Shown here: positions 12,879 through 37,340 of the stretch, piece by piece | Layout of the letters: each line of letters starts with the position of its first letter | Numbering within the stretch: the stretch's first letter is position 1 | DNA from: a virus | IMG/VR virus record: IMGVR_UViG_3300043411_000554 | Location: 1-37,340 of that record | Reading direction: 5' to 3' (one strand) | DNA: 37,340 nt | Translations under genes and position numbers: made by a program | Notes under the pieces: model-generated | Databases searched by the model: none | What the model was told of the DNA's origin: nothing | What the model saw: only the letters and a program-made list of their open reading frames with translations

Positions 12879-14021
12879 ATGGCTACCGGGACACGGACTA
12901 GCTACACCGACAGCAATGTCAATATGCGCAGCATCGCCGATGCTGTGTTCATGATCGATTGGACAGAAGCGCCTTTGCTCAACATCCTGGGCTTTGGGCC
13001 GGAGAACGTGCGCAAGTTTGAGCTGGTGAACTTCCCCTCGACGAAGGTTGAGTGGATCGAAGACACCATGTCGCCGTACACCACGACGACGGCGGAAGAC
13101 ATGGACACCAGCGAGACCGGGCTGGATGTGGCGACGGACACGGGATCGTATTTCCGCCAGGGCGACATCATCAGCGTGGGCAGCGAGTATATGCTGGTGA
13201 CCAGCGTTAGCTCCGACACACTAACGGTGGTGCGCGGCTACGGCAGCACGACGGCGGCGTCCAGCTCGACCGGCGCAACGGTGACGCTGTTGACGCGCGC
13301 GATGCCGGAAGGGGCAGACGCCACGACCGGGCACACGACCACGGCCAGCCAGCCGTACAACTACAGCCAGATCATCAGCGAGGCGGCGAAGGCCACGAAG
13401 ACGGCCATCGCCATCAAGAAGTACGGGATCGCCGATGAGATAGACTACCAGGTGGGCAAGCTTTTTGCCAACGGCGGCCAGGCCGGGAAGCTGGCGCAGT
13501 TCCTCCAGCGCACGTTCTACTATGGCAAGCGGGTGCAGCGGTCGGCCAGCGCGTATGGCAGCATGGGCGGCTTTGGGGTGTTCGTGACGACCAACGTCTC
13601 CAACCTGGCAAGCGCCAGCCTGCAACGCAGCGACATCCACACGAAGATCCGGCAGATCAGGGATGGCGGCGGGATGTGCTCGCATCTGATTACCGGGTCG
13701 TGGGGGCTGGAGAAGATCAACGGGATGTACGAGGGGAGCATCCGCACGACACGCGACGAGACGCGCGGCGGCAGCGAGATCACGATGGTCAAGACCCCAC
13801 ACGGCGAGGTCGAGGTGGTGTACGACTGGATGTGTCCGGCTGGCTATATGTACTTCATCAACCAGGAGAAGTGCGGGTGGCTGCCGGTGCGTCCGTTCGA
13901 GGCCGGGAAGATCGCCGAACAGGGCGACTACTTCGTCACCGATGTAGTGGGCGAGTACACGTTCGGCATTGCCAACGAGGAGAGCCACGGGCTGATTTAT
14001 GGGTTTAGCACTTCGAGCTGA
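12879..14021 (+). CDS. Major capsid protein, SU10/DUF5309-like (HK97 fold expected)
   Basis: This 380-aa protein resembles the SU10-type major capsid family (DUF5309). The N-terminal part has IADAVFMIDWTEAPLLNILG. A central beta insert follows with the typical GSEYMLVTSVSSDTLTVVRG segment and a Gly/Thr/Ser loop. Next come an alpha-helical stretch (SEAAKATKTAIAIKKYG, then FLQRTFYYGKR) and a C-terminal beta domain ending in GLIYGFSTSS. It would build the icosahedral shell on the scaffold encoded 11 bases upstream. A strong ribosome-binding site (GAGGAGTGAGAG) precedes ATG 12879, consistent with high expression. I am confident of the capsid role and less so of the exact family. Confidence 0.88.
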   Translation: MATGTRTSYTDSNVNMRSIADAVFMIDWTEAPLLNILGFGPENVRKFELVNFPSTKVEWIEDTMSPYTTTTAEDMDTSETGLDVATDTGSYFRQGDIISVGSEYMLVTSVSSDTLTVVRGYGSTTAASSSTGATVTLLTRAMPEGADATTGHTTTASQPYNYSQIISEAAKATKTAIAIKKYGIADEIDYQVGKLFANGGQAGKLAQFLQRTFYYGKRVQRSASAYGSMGGFGVFVTTNVSNLASASLQRSDIHTKIRQIRDGGGMCSHLITGSWGLEKINGMYEGSIRTTRDETRGGSEITMVKTPHGEVEVVYDWMCPAGYMYFINQEKCGWLPVRPFEAGKIAEQGDYFVTDVVGEYTFGIANEESHGLIYGFSTSS

Positions 14022-14040
14022 GATTAGGAGATTGGAGATT

Positions 14041-14073
14041 GGGAGATTGGAGATTACGCCAGTCTCCCTTCTT
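14041..14073 (+). terminator. Terminator-like hairpin after capsid gene, built from GGAGATT repeats
   Basis: The gap 14022-14096 starts with tandem GGAGATT-type repeats, a kind of intergenic repeat I associate with Chloroflexota. GGGAGATTGG at 14041-14050 pairs with CCAGTCTCCC at 14059-14068 over 10 bp including one wobble, followed by TTCTT. The short, interrupted T tract suggests partial termination after the capsid gene. Confidence 0.5.
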
Positions 14074-14096
14074 GCGATCTCTACCAGGAGACAACC

Positions 14097-14672
14097 ATGA
14101 TTACGAATCAGCCACAACAGTTCGAGAGCGGGATTGATGGGGCGGGGCCGGTGCAGTGGTTCGGGCCGGACGCGCCAGACGGAGACCGGGGGCCGTGGGT
14201 TAGCGCGCCGGTGGGCAGCATGTACTGCAAGAAGAGCGCCACGCAGACGACCTGGTACGTGAAGGAGAAGAACGACGGCGCCGACAATGACTGGTCGGTG
14301 CGCTGGGGTGAGATTCGCCAGACGTTCGACTTCGCCGACTTCACGGACGGCGGCAGCGCGGCGGGCACACTGGCGCTGAGTGAGCCACTGCCGGTGGGGG
14401 CGTGGGTGCTGCGCGCGGTGCTGCGCAACGTGACCGGGTTCACCGGAAACACGAGCGCGGTGATCACGGTGGGCGACGGCACGGACGTTGACCGGTACAA
14501 CACGGGCACGCCAAGCGTCTTCACGACAGCCAACGCCATCGACCTGGGCGCACCCAGCGGCACGCAGATTCACTCGGCGGCCGCCACGGTGACAGTGACG
14601 GTGACGGGCGGGTCTGACTTCGGCGCCATCACGGCCGGGCAGGCGACGATCTCGATCTACTATCTGGGTTAG
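14097..14672 (+). CDS. Probable head decoration or fibre protein
   Basis: This 191-aa protein is beta-rich. The N-terminal segment (APVGSMYCKKSATQTTWYVKEK, followed by NDWSVRW) resembles the short beta module common in phage decoration and fibre proteins. The rest is Thr/Ala/Gly-rich strands ending in QATISIYYLG. It sits directly after the major capsid gene behind a good AGGAG site, the usual place for a capsid-binding accessory protein. Function is inferred from position and composition only. A head-fibre or tail-associated role is also possible. Confidence 0.6.
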   Translation: MITNQPQQFESGIDGAGPVQWFGPDAPDGDRGPWVSAPVGSMYCKKSATQTTWYVKEKNDGADNDWSVRWGEIRQTFDFADFTDGGSAAGTLALSEPLPVGAWVLRAVLRNVTGFTGNTSAVITVGDGTDVDRYNTGTPSVFTTANAIDLGAPSGTQIHSAAATVTVTVTGGSDFGAITAGQATISIYYLG

Positions 14673-14673
14673 G

Positions 14674-14807
14674 GCAAGGGCGATTCACATCGGGGTGAAG
14701 GTTGGGTGCATCCATGAGCGCCGGGCGGCACCGAAGCGTTACGTGTTGCGTAGCGTAGCTGGATTGTAGGTGCGCTGGGCGCCTAGCCCTGGTGTGGATC
14801 GCTTTGC
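14674..14807 (+). ncRNA. Candidate structured leader RNA
   Basis: The 146-base gap holds no ORF but a strong fold. Bases 14680-14695 pair throughout with 14787-14802: 16 bp including three G-U wobbles. The stem extends outward (GCAAG with TTTGC) with one bulge. Inside, CGTTACG and CGTAGCG form a 7-bp hairpin with a 5-base loop (one wobble), and GCACC can pair with GGTGC. Wobble pairing suggests selection at the RNA level. The element ends directly next to a hairpin that covers the next gene's ribosome-binding site, so it looks like a regulatory leader. I do not recognise it as a known riboswitch or ribozyme. Confidence 0.55.
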
Positions 14808-14810
14808 TAT

Positions 14811-14828
14811 ATAGGAGTTGAGTCCTAT
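14811..14828 (+). promoter_or_regulatory. Hairpin sequestering ribosome-binding site and start codon
   Basis: ATAGGA (14811-14816) pairs perfectly with TCCTAT (14823-14828) across a 6-base loop. The AGGAG ribosome-binding site (14813-14817) and the first two bases of the ATG at 14827 are both inside or next to the stem. Translation of the 112-aa gene would be low unless the hairpin opens, which suggests control by the structured RNA just upstream. Confidence 0.6.
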
Positions 14829-15165
14829 GAGTTGTTACAAGACGGCCGTCCTGCAGAACGCAGCGACGGCGACGGGGAACGGCACGGCGCTCGATTGCAC
14901 GCCGGTGAATGACGGGCCGTATTACAGCCTGACGGCGCAGGTTGCCGGGATTACGACGGCGACGATTACCTGGGAGGGGACGGTGGACGGCACCAACTGG
15001 GTAGCGGTGCAGGCCACGAACCTGAACAGCGGCGCAGCGGCGACGACGGCGACGGCGGATGGGTTGTTCCGGGTGACGGTGTTGGGGCTGCGCCAGGTGC
15101 GCGCCCGGATCAGTGCGTACACCAGCGGGACGATCACGGTGACGGGTACATTAGCCGACATGTGA
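14827..15165 (+). CDS. Small beta-rich virion protein
   Basis: This 112-aa protein (MSCYKTAVLQN...GTLADM) consists of short strands rich in Thr, Ala and Val, with TATITWEGTVDGTNW and VRARISAYTSGTITVTG. That pattern is typical of small immunoglobulin-like or decoration modules in phage particles. ATG 14827 was chosen because of AGGAG nine bases upstream. The same stretch lies in a hairpin that would hide it. A decoration or connector-associated role is likely, but no specific family is recognised. Confidence 0.6.
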   Translation: MSCYKTAVLQNAATATGNGTALDCTPVNDGPYYSLTAQVAGITTATITWEGTVDGTNWVAVQATNLNSGAAATTATADGLFRVTVLGLRQVRARISAYTSGTITVTGTLADM

Positions 15166-15177
15166 AAGTGATGCGCG

Positions 15178-15468
15178 ATGGCTGAACGCAGGGAGTTTCC
15201 CCAGCTACTGCGCCGGAAGCGATACCTTGAGCAGGAACTATACACCTACGACAAGTACTTGCGGCGGGATGAGACTGACCCCAAACAGCAAACACGGTGG
15301 GCGTTGGACGCCGAGACGAACAATGAGGAGCTAAACGAGATCGACTATGTACTGCGCTACTTCGAGCGGCTGGGGAATGGGTATCACTTGTCGCGGCGAC
15401 AGTGGCTGCTGCTGGTCAGTCTCGCAGGGCTGGCGATTGTGTTGGGAGTGATAGCGGTGGTGCGATGA
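15178..15468 (+). CDS. Small coiled-coil protein with C-terminal membrane anchor
   Basis: This 96-aa protein has a charged alpha-helical N-terminus (residues 1-70, Arg/Glu-rich, probably coiled coil). One C-terminal transmembrane helix follows (about 76-94, WLLLVSLAGLAIVLGVIAVV). Its stop overlaps the start of the next membrane-protein gene, so the two are probably made together. Paired small membrane proteins amid virion genes are candidates for lysis (spanin- or holin-like) or for membrane attachment during ejection. The sequence does not decide this. Confidence 0.65.
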   Translation: MAERREFPQLLRRKRYLEQELYTYDKYLRRDETDPKQQTRWALDAETNNEELNEIDYVLRYFERLGNGYHLSRRQWLLLVSLAGLAIVLGVIAVVR

Positions 15469-28946: not shown

Positions 28947-29022
28947 TAGCAAAGTGGCCTGGTCGGTGCGGACACACTGACCAGGCCGGGACGTGGGCGT
29001 TCGTGGCGCCCACTTGCTACAT
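28947..29022 (+). ncRNA. Multi-stem leader RNA candidate before FtsK-like gene
   Basis: TAGCAAAGTGG (28947) can pair with CCACTTGCTA (29011-29020) with one bulge, enclosing GGCCTGGTC/GACCAGGCC (28956-28964 with 28979-28987) and GTGGGCG/CGCCCAC (28993-28999 with 29007-29013). The last stem and the outer stem compete for the same bases. TGCTAC-ATT-GTAGCA (29015-29029) offers a third pairing, followed directly by a terminator. Mutually exclusive stems before a terminator are typical of attenuators. Confidence 0.5.
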
Positions 29023-29029
29023 TGTAGCA
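29015..29029. promoter_or_regulatory. Palindromic TGCTACATT / TGCTACAAT site
   Basis: TGCTAC and GTAGCA around ATT give a plus-strand TGCTACATT (29015-29023) and a minus-strand TGCTACAAT (29021-29029). The minus form is identical to the -10 of the 31301 element. It may be a promoter (either direction) or part of the leader fold. Confidence 0.4.
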
Positions 29030-29061
29030 GGGGCATTGCACCACGAGCAATGCCCCTTTTT
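29030..29061 (+). terminator. Intrinsic terminator before FtsK-like gene
   Basis: A perfect 10-bp stem GGGGCATTGC / GCAATGCCCC with a 7-base loop is followed by TTTTTG. The ribosome-binding site GGAGGT and ATG 29080 come right after, so read-through is needed for expression from upstream promoters. Confidence 0.85.
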
Positions 29062-29079
29062 GTTTGGTTGGAGGTACGC

Positions 29080-30414
29080 ATGGACAACGGGATCGAGGGG
29101 CTGTTGAGCCGGGAGATTGCGACGATCAATCGGACCTTCGCCCACTTCGACGTGCAGGCGGCAACGTCGCCGGCGCGCACGTTGGTGGCGGGGTCGTCGT
29201 TCGTGGCGTATGGGCTGCGGACGGGGGCGGCGCAGCGGATCAGTGAGATCGAGGGTGTGCTCGATGAGTTGGGCGAACGGTTGAGCGCCGGGCGCCGGTG
29301 CGCTACGCCGGTGCGGTTACGGCGGATGCCGCTGGCGTTAGAGGTGGCCCACCCCAACCCGCGGCCGTTGGATTGGCGGCGTGCGGTTATGCGGGTGGGG
29401 GCGGGGCGGATGGTGGCGGGGCGCAATTACAGCGTGACGCCCGCGGCCGATCTGGTGCTCGATCTGGACAAGTCGCCCCATGTGCTGGTGGCGGGGACGA
29501 CGGGCAGCGGGAAGTCTACCATGCTGCGGATGATGCTGGCGTCGCTGGCGTTTTCGTCGGCGCCGGATGCGCTGCGCATGATGATCGTGGATCGCAAGCA
29601 TTTGGATATGGTGCCGTTCGCCCAGTTACCACACACGGAGGGCGCGGCGTACACGGCGGAGGATGCGCAGCGGGCGGTGGCCACGGTACACGCCGAACTA
29701 CAGCGGCGGGTGGCGGCCGGGCACGGGCGCTGGTCGCGGTTGGTGCTGGTGATCGATGAGTTGGCGCAGCTCGACGCTGCGTCGCTGGAGTTGCTGGCGG
29801 CCGTGCTGGCCGTGGGGCGCAGCATGTTGGTCAATGTGATCGCAGCGACGCAGCATCCTACCGTGCGGCTGATCGGGGACAAAGCGAACTATGCGGTGCG
29901 TCTCGTCGGGCAGGTGGTGGACGGGCCAACGGCGGCGCTGGCGACGGGACGCAAGCAGACGGGGGCGGAATTTCTGCCAGGGGCCGGGGCGTTCCTGTAC
30001 GTGGATGGCGGGCGGCTGGAACGGGTGCAGGCGTATTACCTGGACGGGGGCACGACGGCGGCGTTGGTGGGCGTGATCGGGCAGAAGTGGGGTTCTACTC
30101 CTGTGCAGTTGCCAGTAGTAGAGCCTGCTACGGTAGGAGTAGAGCGGGTAGAGGATGAGATCACGCGGATTGCGGGGTTGATTCGGCGGCTGTGGGAACA
30201 GGGGGCGAGTAAGAGCGCCATGTGTAAAGAGGCGCTGAGCAAGCCCTATGCCGGGTCGTATGCGGCGAAGATCGACAGGGCGATCCAACTACTGGAGAGC
30301 TCTACTACTACTACAGGGGCGAGTGCTGGCGCAGGGGAGATGGGGCGCACGGAGGGCGGCGACGGTAGTAGTAGTAGAGGGTTGGCGCCGGTGTTGCGGA
30401 TGGGGATGCGCTGA
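29080..30414 (+). CDS. FtsK/SpoIIIE-type DNA-translocase ATPase
   Basis: This 444-aa protein has a Walker A motif GTTGSGKST (residues 139-147), Walker B LVLVIDELA (221-229, D226 E227), and AATQHP with the sensor-type context that follows in FtsK-family motors. The N-terminal 120 residues are a short alpha/beta region without transmembrane helices, unlike host FtsK. The C-terminus carries a helix-turn-helix-like segment (EQGASKSAMCKEALSKPYAG) that could read DNA. Related compact translocases act in actinobacterial conjugative elements. In a phage it may move, segregate or process DNA. The start is ATG 29080 behind GGAGGT. Confidence 0.85.
   Translation: MDNGIEGLLSREIATINRTFAHFDVQAATSPARTLVAGSSFVAYGLRTGAAQRISEIEGVLDELGERLSAGRRCATPVRLRRMPLALEVAHPNPRPLDWRRAVMRVGAGRMVAGRNYSVTPAADLVLDLDKSPHVLVAGTTGSGKSTMLRMMLASLAFSSAPDALRMMIVDRKHLDMVPFAQLPHTEGAAYTAEDAQRAVATVHAELQRRVAAGHGRWSRLVLVIDELAQLDAASLELLAAVLAVGRSMLVNVIAATQHPTVRLIGDKANYAVRLVGQVVDGPTAALATGRKQTGAEFLPGAGAFLYVDGGRLERVQAYYLDGGTTAALVGVIGQKWGSTPVQLPVVEPATVGVERVEDEITRIAGLIRRLWEQGASKSAMCKEALSKPYAGSYAAKIDRAIQLLESSTTTTGASAGAGEMGRTEGGDGSSSRGLAPVLRMGMR
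30300..30379. repeat. CTA/TAG inverted repeat in the 3' end of the FtsK-like gene
   Basis: CTCTACTACTACTA (30300-30313) is the exact complement of TAGTAGTAGTAGAG (30366-30379). A second pair TCTACTCCT / AGGAGTAGA and further TAGTAGAG copies lie at 30092-30150. They encode low-complexity Ser/Thr residues but could be recognition repeats for the translocase. Confidence 0.65.
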
Positions 30415-34870: not shown

Positions 34871-36814
34871 ATGAAACTAACGATAGACGAGATTAAAGAG
34901 TGGGTGGACGCTATCGAGTCCAAGCAGGGGGAGTACCGCACGGCGGCCAGGACGTGGGAAGCCATGTGGAATATGGAGGTCTTCGACCGCACGCCGAAGC
35001 AGGCAATCGAGCAGGACGGGCAGGAGCAGGTGACGCTGCCGGTTGCGTACAACGTGGTGCATCTGGCGCAGCGATTGATCAGCTCGCACCCGCGGATCGA
35101 GGTGCCCAGCGAGCTCGCTGAAGAGGACGACGACCAGGCGGCGCAGGTGCGGCAGCGGTGGTTGGCGGCGCTGTGGCAGCGGGTGAATCGGCAGGCCGGG
35201 CGGGATGTGATCGCTGATGCGGTGTGGCAGGCGCTCGTGCGTGGGCGGTTTTGCTTCCAGGTGCTGTGGGTCTTCGACCAGATGCCGGAACGCTTGAAGG
35301 AGACCAGCCTGCCCATGATTGTGCGGACGCTCGATCCGCTGAACGTGGGGGTGAAGCGTGGGCCGCTGTATGTGGAGTATGCGTATTACAAAGACCCGCA
35401 GACGGTCAGTTCGATCCGGCAGATGTTCCCCAACCTGGAGGTGGGCAAGGGCGCCAGGCGCAAAAGACGGAACAAGGGCGAGGATAAGCTCGACGTGATC
35501 GATATGTGGTGGGTGGGTGACGAAGGGGCGATCTGGAATGCGGTAGTGGTCGACGACCAGTTCGCCAAAGAGCCGGTGGCGACGGACTATTTGCATATCC
35601 CGATTGTGCTAGGGTTGGGCGACACGGCGCCGATTGACAGCAAGATCGGGCAGGGCTACAGCATCCTACACCCGCTAAAGGACATCTACCCGTACATGTG
35701 CCGACTTGCCAGCCAGATCGGGACGGGGCTGCTGGCGTACTTCTGGCCGGCGATCCTGGTCGAGAATGAGATGGGGGTAGAGGTGCCCGACCTGGAGATT
35801 GGGCCGGGGAAGACGACGCCGATCCCCGCGGGGACGAAGGTCAACGTGCTGCGCGCAGACGTGAACGTACCACTGGCCAACAACATGCTCGGCATTCTGG
35901 ACACCCACATGCAGATGGCGACCTTCCCCGGCGTGATGTATGGGGAGAGCGGCGACATGAAGGCAGGGTATGGGGTCAACGTGCTGGCAGACCAGGCACG
36001 GGGACGCATCGCCCAGATTCGCAATAACGTGGAGAGCGCACTGGAGCATGTGAATGAGATCGTGCTGGCGCTGGTGGATGAGATGGCCGACAGCCAGGGC
36101 GTGACGATCTGGGGCAAGGATAGCCGCAGCGGGAGTATCTTTAAGGAGGTGCTGACGCCGGAAGACATCCAGGGCGCCTACAACAATATGGTGACGCTTG
36201 TCCCCGCGGTGACGCTCGACGACCTGCAAAAGCAAACGCTAGGTATGCGGATGGTGGAGCAGGGGATCGCCAGTATGCGGACGTACCGGGACAAGTTCAT
36301 TAGCGAGGAGTTCCCGGACGATGAGGCGCTGCGCGTGGCGTATGAGCGGCTGATTACCGGGGAGTTGGGGCCGAAGACGCAGTTGGAAGCATTGCAGAAA
36401 TACCGCCCGAACGACTGGGAGAGACTCGTCAAAGGCACGCCACTTGAGCAACTGGCGCGGCAGATGGAAGAGCGGGGCCAGGGGACAGGTGGTCCGCCCG
36501 GTATGCCGCCAGGTGGTCCGCCCGGTATGCCGCCAGGTGGGCCGCCAGGAATGCCGCCAGGAATGCCGCCCGGTGGGCCGCCGATGGGTGGGCCGCCCGG
36601 AATGCCGCCCGGTGGGCCGCCAGGAATGGGGGGAGGTGGGCCAGGGGGAGCGCCGCCAGCGATGGTGGGCGGGCTGCCACCTGAACTACTGCTGGGGGCG
36701 GCGGCGGGACAGCTTCCGCCAGGGCTATTCCAGCAGATGCAAGGAGAGGAGTTGCCACCAGAGGAGATGCTGCGGCGACAGATGGGCGGGCCGCCCGGAA
36801 TGATGAGGGGATGA
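34871..36814 (+). CDS. Portal protein
   Basis: This 647-aa protein has the length and helical-beta pattern of phage portals: LPVAYNVVHLAQRLISSHPR near the N-terminus, VWQALVRGRFCFQVLWVFD, a stem/wing region with LLAYFWPAILVENEMG, and QARGRIAQIRNNVESALEHV. The final 110 residues are a low-complexity Pro/Gly/Met tail (GGPPGMPP units, 36490-36660), unusual for a portal. It follows the methyltransferase and terminase genes and precedes the virion module, the standard position. GGGGAG precedes ATG 34871. It should form the dodecameric DNA gateway at one capsid vertex. Confidence 0.88.
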   Translation: MKLTIDEIKEWVDAIESKQGEYRTAARTWEAMWNMEVFDRTPKQAIEQDGQEQVTLPVAYNVVHLAQRLISSHPRIEVPSELAEEDDDQAAQVRQRWLAALWQRVNRQAGRDVIADAVWQALVRGRFCFQVLWVFDQMPERLKETSLPMIVRTLDPLNVGVKRGPLYVEYAYYKDPQTVSSIRQMFPNLEVGKGARRKRRNKGEDKLDVIDMWWVGDEGAIWNAVVVDDQFAKEPVATDYLHIPIVLGLGDTAPIDSKIGQGYSILHPLKDIYPYMCRLASQIGTGLLAYFWPAILVENEMGVEVPDLEIGPGKTTPIPAGTKVNVLRADVNVPLANNMLGILDTHMQMATFPGVMYGESGDMKAGYGVNVLADQARGRIAQIRNNVESALEHVNEIVLALVDEMADSQGVTIWGKDSRSGSIFKEVLTPEDIQGAYNNMVTLVPAVTLDDLQKQTLGMRMVEQGIASMRTYRDKFISEEFPDDEALRVAYERLITGELGPKTQLEALQKYRPNDWERLVKGTPLEQLARQMEERGQGTGGPPGMPPGGPPGMPPGGPPGMPPGMPPGGPPMGGPPGMPPGGPPGMGGGGPGGAPPAMVGGLPPELLLGAAAGQLPPGLFQQMQGEELPPEEMLRRQMGGPPGMMRG

Positions 36815-37007: not shown

Positions 37008-37340
37008 TGGCGACGACCTATCAGATCACGCCGTATGTGCAGCAGCCGGTGCAGGATGATTGGGGCTACACGCTGCCGATGGCGCTCAACAGCGGGCAAC
37101 AGGCGACGCAGTACAGCACGCAGCCGGTGCAGCCCCAGCAGATGTACAGCACGCAGCCAGTGCAGATGTACAGTGCGCAGGCATTCAGCCAGCAGCCCAG
37201 TTGGTACGGCAACCAGGCGACGCAGTACAGCACGCAGCCGGTGCAGCCCCAGCAGATGTACAGCACGCAGCCAGTGCAGATGTACAGTGCGCAGGCATTC
37301 AGCCAGCAGCCCAGTTGGTACGGCAACCAGGCGACGCAGT
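37007..37340 (+). CDS. Gln-rich repeat virion protein, 5' part (continues at 1-2206)
   Basis: The true start is ATG 37007 (MATTYQITPYVQQPVQDDWG), overlapping the stop of the membrane-protein gene. The reading frame runs off the window end and continues at position 1 of the circle in the same frame, because 37264 equals position 1. The segment holds two copies of a 38-residue Gln/Tyr/Ser-rich repeat. Its low-complexity composition resembles prion-like domains known to self-associate. Confidence 0.85.
   Translation, partial: MATTYQITPYVQQPVQDDWGYTLPMALNSGQQATQYSTQPVQPQQMYSTQPVQMYSAQAFSQQPSWYGNQATQYSTQPVQPQQMYSTQPVQMYSAQAFSQQPSWYGNQATQ
37106..37333 (+). repeat. 114-bp tandem repeat, 2 copies spanning the assembly end
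   Basis: Units at 37106-37219 and 37220-37333 (38 codons each) are virtually identical and contain the 77-base terminal overlap. The contig ends within the repeat, so the real copy number may be higher than assembled. Confidence 0.9.

Follow-up and report, generated by a model that had tools for sequence, protein, structure and literature searches.

The window analysed here, the whole stretch of 37,340 nucleotides, is a virus contig that derives from an uncultured phage and lacks end repeats. On its plus strand it encodes a major capsid protein (MCP) of the SU10 type (PF17236; positions 12879–14021), followed by a gene for a 191-residue protein (14097–14672) and a gene for a 112-residue protein (14827–15165), both with no assigned function. 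The 112-residue protein has many relatives in viral contigs; another phage contig carrying one of them (L004) contains an RT-17 RNA (RF03020; 7672–7758, plus strand, 43.5 bits, above cut-off). The gap between the two genes downstream of the capsid gene measures 154 nt and is occupied by a structured RNA alone, which fills the entire space between the upstream stop codon (14670–14672) and the downstream ribosome-binding site (14813–14817). No open reading frame of at least 60 aa was found on either strand within 14673–14810. Farther along the window, an FtsK/HerA-like ATPase (28993–30414) and a divergent portal (34871–36814) are present, and no terminase large subunit was recognised among the open reading frames of the window scanned with Pfam or PHROGs.

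The plus strand from 14670 to 14835 folds with a predicted energy of −80.4 kcal/mol, compared with a mean of −59.9 ± 4.0 kcal/mol for shuffled sequences (z = −5.1), and none of 200 dinucleotide shuffles folded equally well. The complementary strand of the element folds less strongly (z = −2.9). This bears out the structured late-region RNA proposed in a preliminary description of this DNA. The element is closed by an outer helix in which, according to the fold and the count of pairs, the 5′ arm (14677–14695) forms 19 consecutive canonical pairs with the 3′ arm (14787–14805). This helix contains the previously recognised 16-bp pairing of 14680–14695 with 14787–14802, including its three G-U pairs, at exactly these positions, and the suspected outward extension runs unbroken to 14677/14805. 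On the 5′ side, a 20-nt bulge (14696–14715, plus strand), with the sequence TGAAGGTYGGGTKCRTCCRT common to the window and its closest relative, links the outer helix to the core; the alignment of the two genomes is near-identical there, and inspection of the sequence reveals a possible mini-hairpin (GGGtgcaTCC in the window, GGGttcgTCC in the relative). The core (14716–14784, plus strand) consists of a lower stem (14716–14732 with 14769–14784), an internal loop formed by GAA (14733–14735) and the segment 14757–14768 that ends in UUGUA, and an upper stem of 9 bp (14736–14744 with 14748–14756) capped by a loop at 14745–14747. The upper stem corresponds to the inner hairpin noticed before, which was given as 7 bp long. 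A perfect 6-bp hairpin (14811–14828; 14811–14816 with 14823–14828) follows the outer helix and, as described, covers the AGGAG sequence at 14813–14817 and the first two bases of the ATG at 14827.

A search of the whole window against Rfam at gathering thresholds returned no matches, riboswitches included. A cmscan of positions 14600–14900 with lax filters yielded a sole match, the DUF3800-VIII RNA (RF03075), which spans 14716–14784 and aligns to the full model (positions 1–64) with two non-standard pairs; any other Rfam class or riboswitch was therefore rejected for this element. The 20-nt bulge lies outside the Rfam model. The score of the window copy, 38.5 bits (E = 8.5e-6 for the 301-base scan against 4227 families, 2.5e-7 for the record), is just below the gathering cut-off of 40.2 bits, and the copy found at the same place in the relative, IMGVR_UViG_3300048591_000336, exceeds the cut-off with 49.4 bits. 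The conserved letters of the internal loop, CGAA ... UGUAGG, appear in the window as CCGAAG ... UUGUAGG. Our own model, R1, scores the window core at 49.6 bits with the window sequence included in its training set. Because the core of both the window and the relative matches RF03075, the view that the element belongs to no known class is wrong. The element belongs to the DUF3800-VIII family, is borne by a phage and carries a 19-bp helix as a basal extension. The family is said to have been originally described by Weinberg et al. in 2017; no function for it was found in the literature that could be searched.

The genome of the relative is collinear with the window at about 75% DNA identity across most of its length, and the protein identities are 87% for the capsid, 75% for the upstream gene and 85% for the downstream gene. 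Internally repetitive sequence occurs at both ends of both contigs (11–2206 and 37100–37340 in the window; L111 1–700 and the end of L112) and matches across the ends, which suggests circularly permuted genomes cut within a repeat-rich gene. The outer helices of the two genomes were compared in a gap-free alignment placed from the conserved anchors GGGGTGAAGG and GCCTAGCC. Among 15 aligned pairs, five are double compensations and three are one-sided changes, with no pair broken, in a comparison that rests on two genomes, this relative being the single one found close enough. With the changed letters drawn at random, all eight altered pairs would remain paired with a probability of about 5e-4, and the pairing breaks in shifted registers. 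The compensatory changes in the stem of 14680 and 14787 that had been predicted as support for the element are therefore seen.

Covariation in the core was followed over a wider set. In a first alignment, comprising the window, the relative, two gut phages and seven phages of the SPbeta group, double changes were present in 14 of 25 pairs, and the covariation score was matched by none of 500 shuffles. With 29 distinct sequences, 17 of the 25 pairs are double-changed; the double-changed cells number 119, compared with 41 in shuffles, of which none in 500 reached this level, and 83.6% of the cells are paired, against 39–51% for shifted structures, in an alignment that was fitted to the model and is hence biased towards its structure. 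The core displays the consensus secondary structure with covariation that is required of RF03075 members.

The location of the 6-bp hairpin had led to the view that the RNA controls translation of the 112-residue protein by sequestering its ribosome-binding site. The RNA does reach this site, which lies within the hairpin, and the relative retains both CTATATAGGAG and the position. The hairpin is, however, unexceptional, ranking fourth in stability among 19 compared start regions of the window, and it is rearranged in the relative, where one pair is lost, one is gained and a different local fold is preferred, so that no conserved helix covers the ribosome-binding site. The predicted core and the hairpin do not overlap. 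Moreover, a homologous record of 16.9 kb (IMGVR_UViG_3300005664_001470, hereafter L082) has all three genes, capsid, upstream and downstream, arranged as in the window (37%, 61% and 53% amino acid identity, respectively), the last two separated by about 26 nt without the element; no RF03075 match occurs anywhere in that record. The element is thus not kept wherever the gene that it would regulate is found, as would be expected of a riboswitch or leader; loss of the element with both flanking genes kept is one of the outcomes that the preliminary description had named as refuting its proposal. In other phages, members of this RNA family are followed by unrelated genes. These results weaken the reading as translational control, which we regard as distinctly unlikely. 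The element is probably no private switch for the adjoining gene; it may still affect translation but is not tied to this gene pair.

Above noise, RF03075 was detected in the window and its relative only among 40 related viral records, and the RNA is absent from Bacillus and Sporosarcina phages with related MCPs. No DNA similarity to the region was found in phage and plasmid collections, and a host search of genome contigs with the MCP and the upstream gene gave no useful match.

A scan of a viral collection with a motif pattern, complemented by a model built from the first core alignment, showed that the family is carried by many other phages. Of the 36 viral contigs retrieved by the motif pattern, one is the known relative; the other 35 are new and all match RF03075, 30 of these over the cut-off. 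The other carriers are phages of the SPbeta group and two human-gut phage contigs, with RF03075 scores of 76.7 and 72.1 bits. A different pattern, TTGCCGAAG...TGTAGGCAA, matched 16 contigs, all by chance. Faecalibacterium phage Roos and MT839879 share with the surroundings of the gut-phage copies a terminator-like hairpin alone, and the RNA is absent from both.

Outside the SPbeta group, many copies adjoin terminase, portal or lysis genes. Terminase genes (TerS/TerL) are located within about 3.6 kb downstream of the RNA in L161, L164/L231, L176 and L186; the copy of L181 sits between TerL and portal; and holin, amidase or glycosyl hydrolase 25 genes lie near the copies in L188, L171 and L121. 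No terminase, portal or lysis neighbour was found in the available DNA of L170, L177, L169 and L182/L183, and a putative TerL of 446 aa/612 aa beside the L184/L233 copy was unconfirmed by PHROGs or Pfam and was not counted. The neighbourhoods were surveyed by eye, with flanking genes taken from simple lists of open reading frames and a few profile searches, and the link to late genes does not amount to a controlled enrichment, because the sample was drawn by a motif pattern and the contexts varied. A U-rich tract closes some of the copies (L185, L166 and L120), as in a stand-alone sRNA, and others are found at operon ends; transcription units may accordingly differ between phages, given these tracts. 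A helix outside the core was also read by eye in L161, L176 and L181, as CCAGCC/GGCTGG in two of them and CCGTCC/GGACGG in the third, a compensatory change. With the outer helices of the window and its relative, these show that basal extensions recur in differing layouts, and the Rfam model may not extend far enough to cover the phage members of RF03075.

The association with a DUF3800 gene that gave the family its name does not hold in the window. No match to PF12686 (DUF3800) was found in the window, the relative, L082 or L083, and SPbeta, phi3T, Goe14, SPbetaL2 and the two gut phages have no DUF3800 gene. Among the 35 new contigs, two carry such a gene, in both cases beside the RNA: in G082 gene and RNA share a strand, with the gene 45 nt upstream, and in G063 the two are convergent with 9 nt between them. 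A nearby DUF3800 gene is therefore not a strict requirement of the family. In the loci of these two DUF3800-carrying contigs, L228 (3688–4631, reverse-complement coordinates) and L229 (4305–5184), a T-rich tract is present 3′ of both RNAs, unlike in the window. DUF3800 proteins have a predicted RNase H fold and are linked with non-coding RNAs (PMC10910872).

The SPbeta copy of RF03075 (59409–59474, 47.5 bits) belongs to the YonO late-operon leader, lying before yonK in the 1.68-kb gap that separates this gene from yonN. The gap also holds a sub-threshold match to the skipping-rope RNA (29.6 bits; cut-off 36.7), and the record of phage Goe14 annotates both DUF3800-VIII and skipping-rope as ncRNA. 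The stretch without annotated gene (L151 5153–6834, equivalent to SPbeta NC_001884 59152–60833) has a predicted fold of −491 kcal/mol and resembles a large structured RNA that forms the leader of the YonO late operon. In SPbetaL3 (L157 2560–3807), the DNA match to the leader ends at query base 982, an opposite-strand open reading frame of 415 aa occupies the expected position of the DUF3800-VIII RNA, and no match to this RNA was found in that stretch.

The SPbeta copy and the copies that lie upstream of terminase genes or inside late regions, on the same strand, are in line with a cis-acting element of the late transcript that would modify RNA polymerase or block termination and so allow read-through of late genes. 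An asymmetric internal loop that is conserved while the helices around it vary would suit binding of a protein or of the polymerase. Against this, the window copy lies within the structural cluster, behind the capsid gene and not at the head of the cluster, no terminator match was found 3′ of it, and some copies are at operon ends or have their own U-tracts; we hold such a role to be possible, though rather unlikely. The frequent terminase and portal neighbours, together with the SPbeta pac site, placed around yonR–yonP a few kb from the RNA (PMC8270828), would also fit a packaging-related RNA or DNA site, with a role like that of the phi29 pRNA or in a pac/cos neighbourhood. The covariation speaks for an RNA and not a DNA site, no recognised packaging gene adjoins the window copy, and many relatives lack the element, which makes this explanation highly improbable. 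Both roles, antitermination and packaging, are suggested by gene neighbourhoods. It is also conceivable, in view of the long near-perfect helices of 19 and 16 bp just downstream of the capsid gene, that the element serves mRNA processing or stability, as an RNase III-type cleavage site or a barrier between the capsid mRNA, which is highly expressed, and the genes downstream of it; a plain helix, however, has no need of a GAA / GAYGUAGG internal loop strongly conserved across phages, and we consider this very unlikely.

The fold, the RF03075 identity, the covariation and the occurrence in many tailed phages, most of which lack a DUF3800 gene, are best accommodated, with about an even chance of being correct, by a DUF3800-VIII RNA module that resides in the gap between two late genes, is transcribed late, is recognised by a protein and probably released from the mRNA, and is no dedicated switch for the next gene. 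A search of 13900–15300 yielded no match to a sigma-70-type promoter or a terminator, both of which are expected of an independently transcribed sRNA; because neither was found beside the element, it would be transcribed within the late mRNA. Flanked by two variable helices, the conserved GAA / GAYGUA internal loop is a candidate recognition site for a phage or host protein, and the RNA would act late in infection as an RNA–protein module, probably once freed from the mRNA. A broader proposition, that DUF3800-VIII is a general late-phase RNA, mostly without a DUF3800 protein, acting on the transcription or packaging machinery of unrelated tailed phages including SPbeta, is put forward tentatively and is more doubtful. 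The presence of the family in many phages, often in packaging or lysis neighbourhoods and mostly without its namesake protein, corrects the view that the gap holds a switch for a single virion gene. Since the RNA is carried by phages and lies in a transcribed late leader of SPbeta, its function is testable in SPbeta or phi3T, in B. subtilis.

Comparison with known systems places the element closest to the DUF3800-VIII RNA, whose 64-nt model it matches over the full length, including the lower stem, the GAA / UGUA internal loop, the 9-bp upper stem and the 3-nt loop. It differs in being enclosed by the 19-bp outer helix with the conserved 20-nt bulge, and in its residence in a phage without a DUF3800 gene. 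With leaders and riboswitches that hide the ribosome-binding site, the element shares a hairpin over that site following a structured domain; by contrast, the gene pair is kept without the element in L082, the hairpin is not conserved and no Rfam riboswitch matches. The put RNA of phage HK022 modifies RNA polymerase or blocks termination, and is, like the present element, a short structured RNA of a phage transcript with conserved unpaired bases, although neither its sequence nor its structure is matched here. The DUF3800-VIII and skipping-rope RNAs of the SPbeta-group late leader have the same core in a tailed-phage late region on the strand of the late genes; the SPbeta copy is embedded in a non-coding leader of 1.68 kb, whereas the RNA of the window stands alone in its 154-nt gap.
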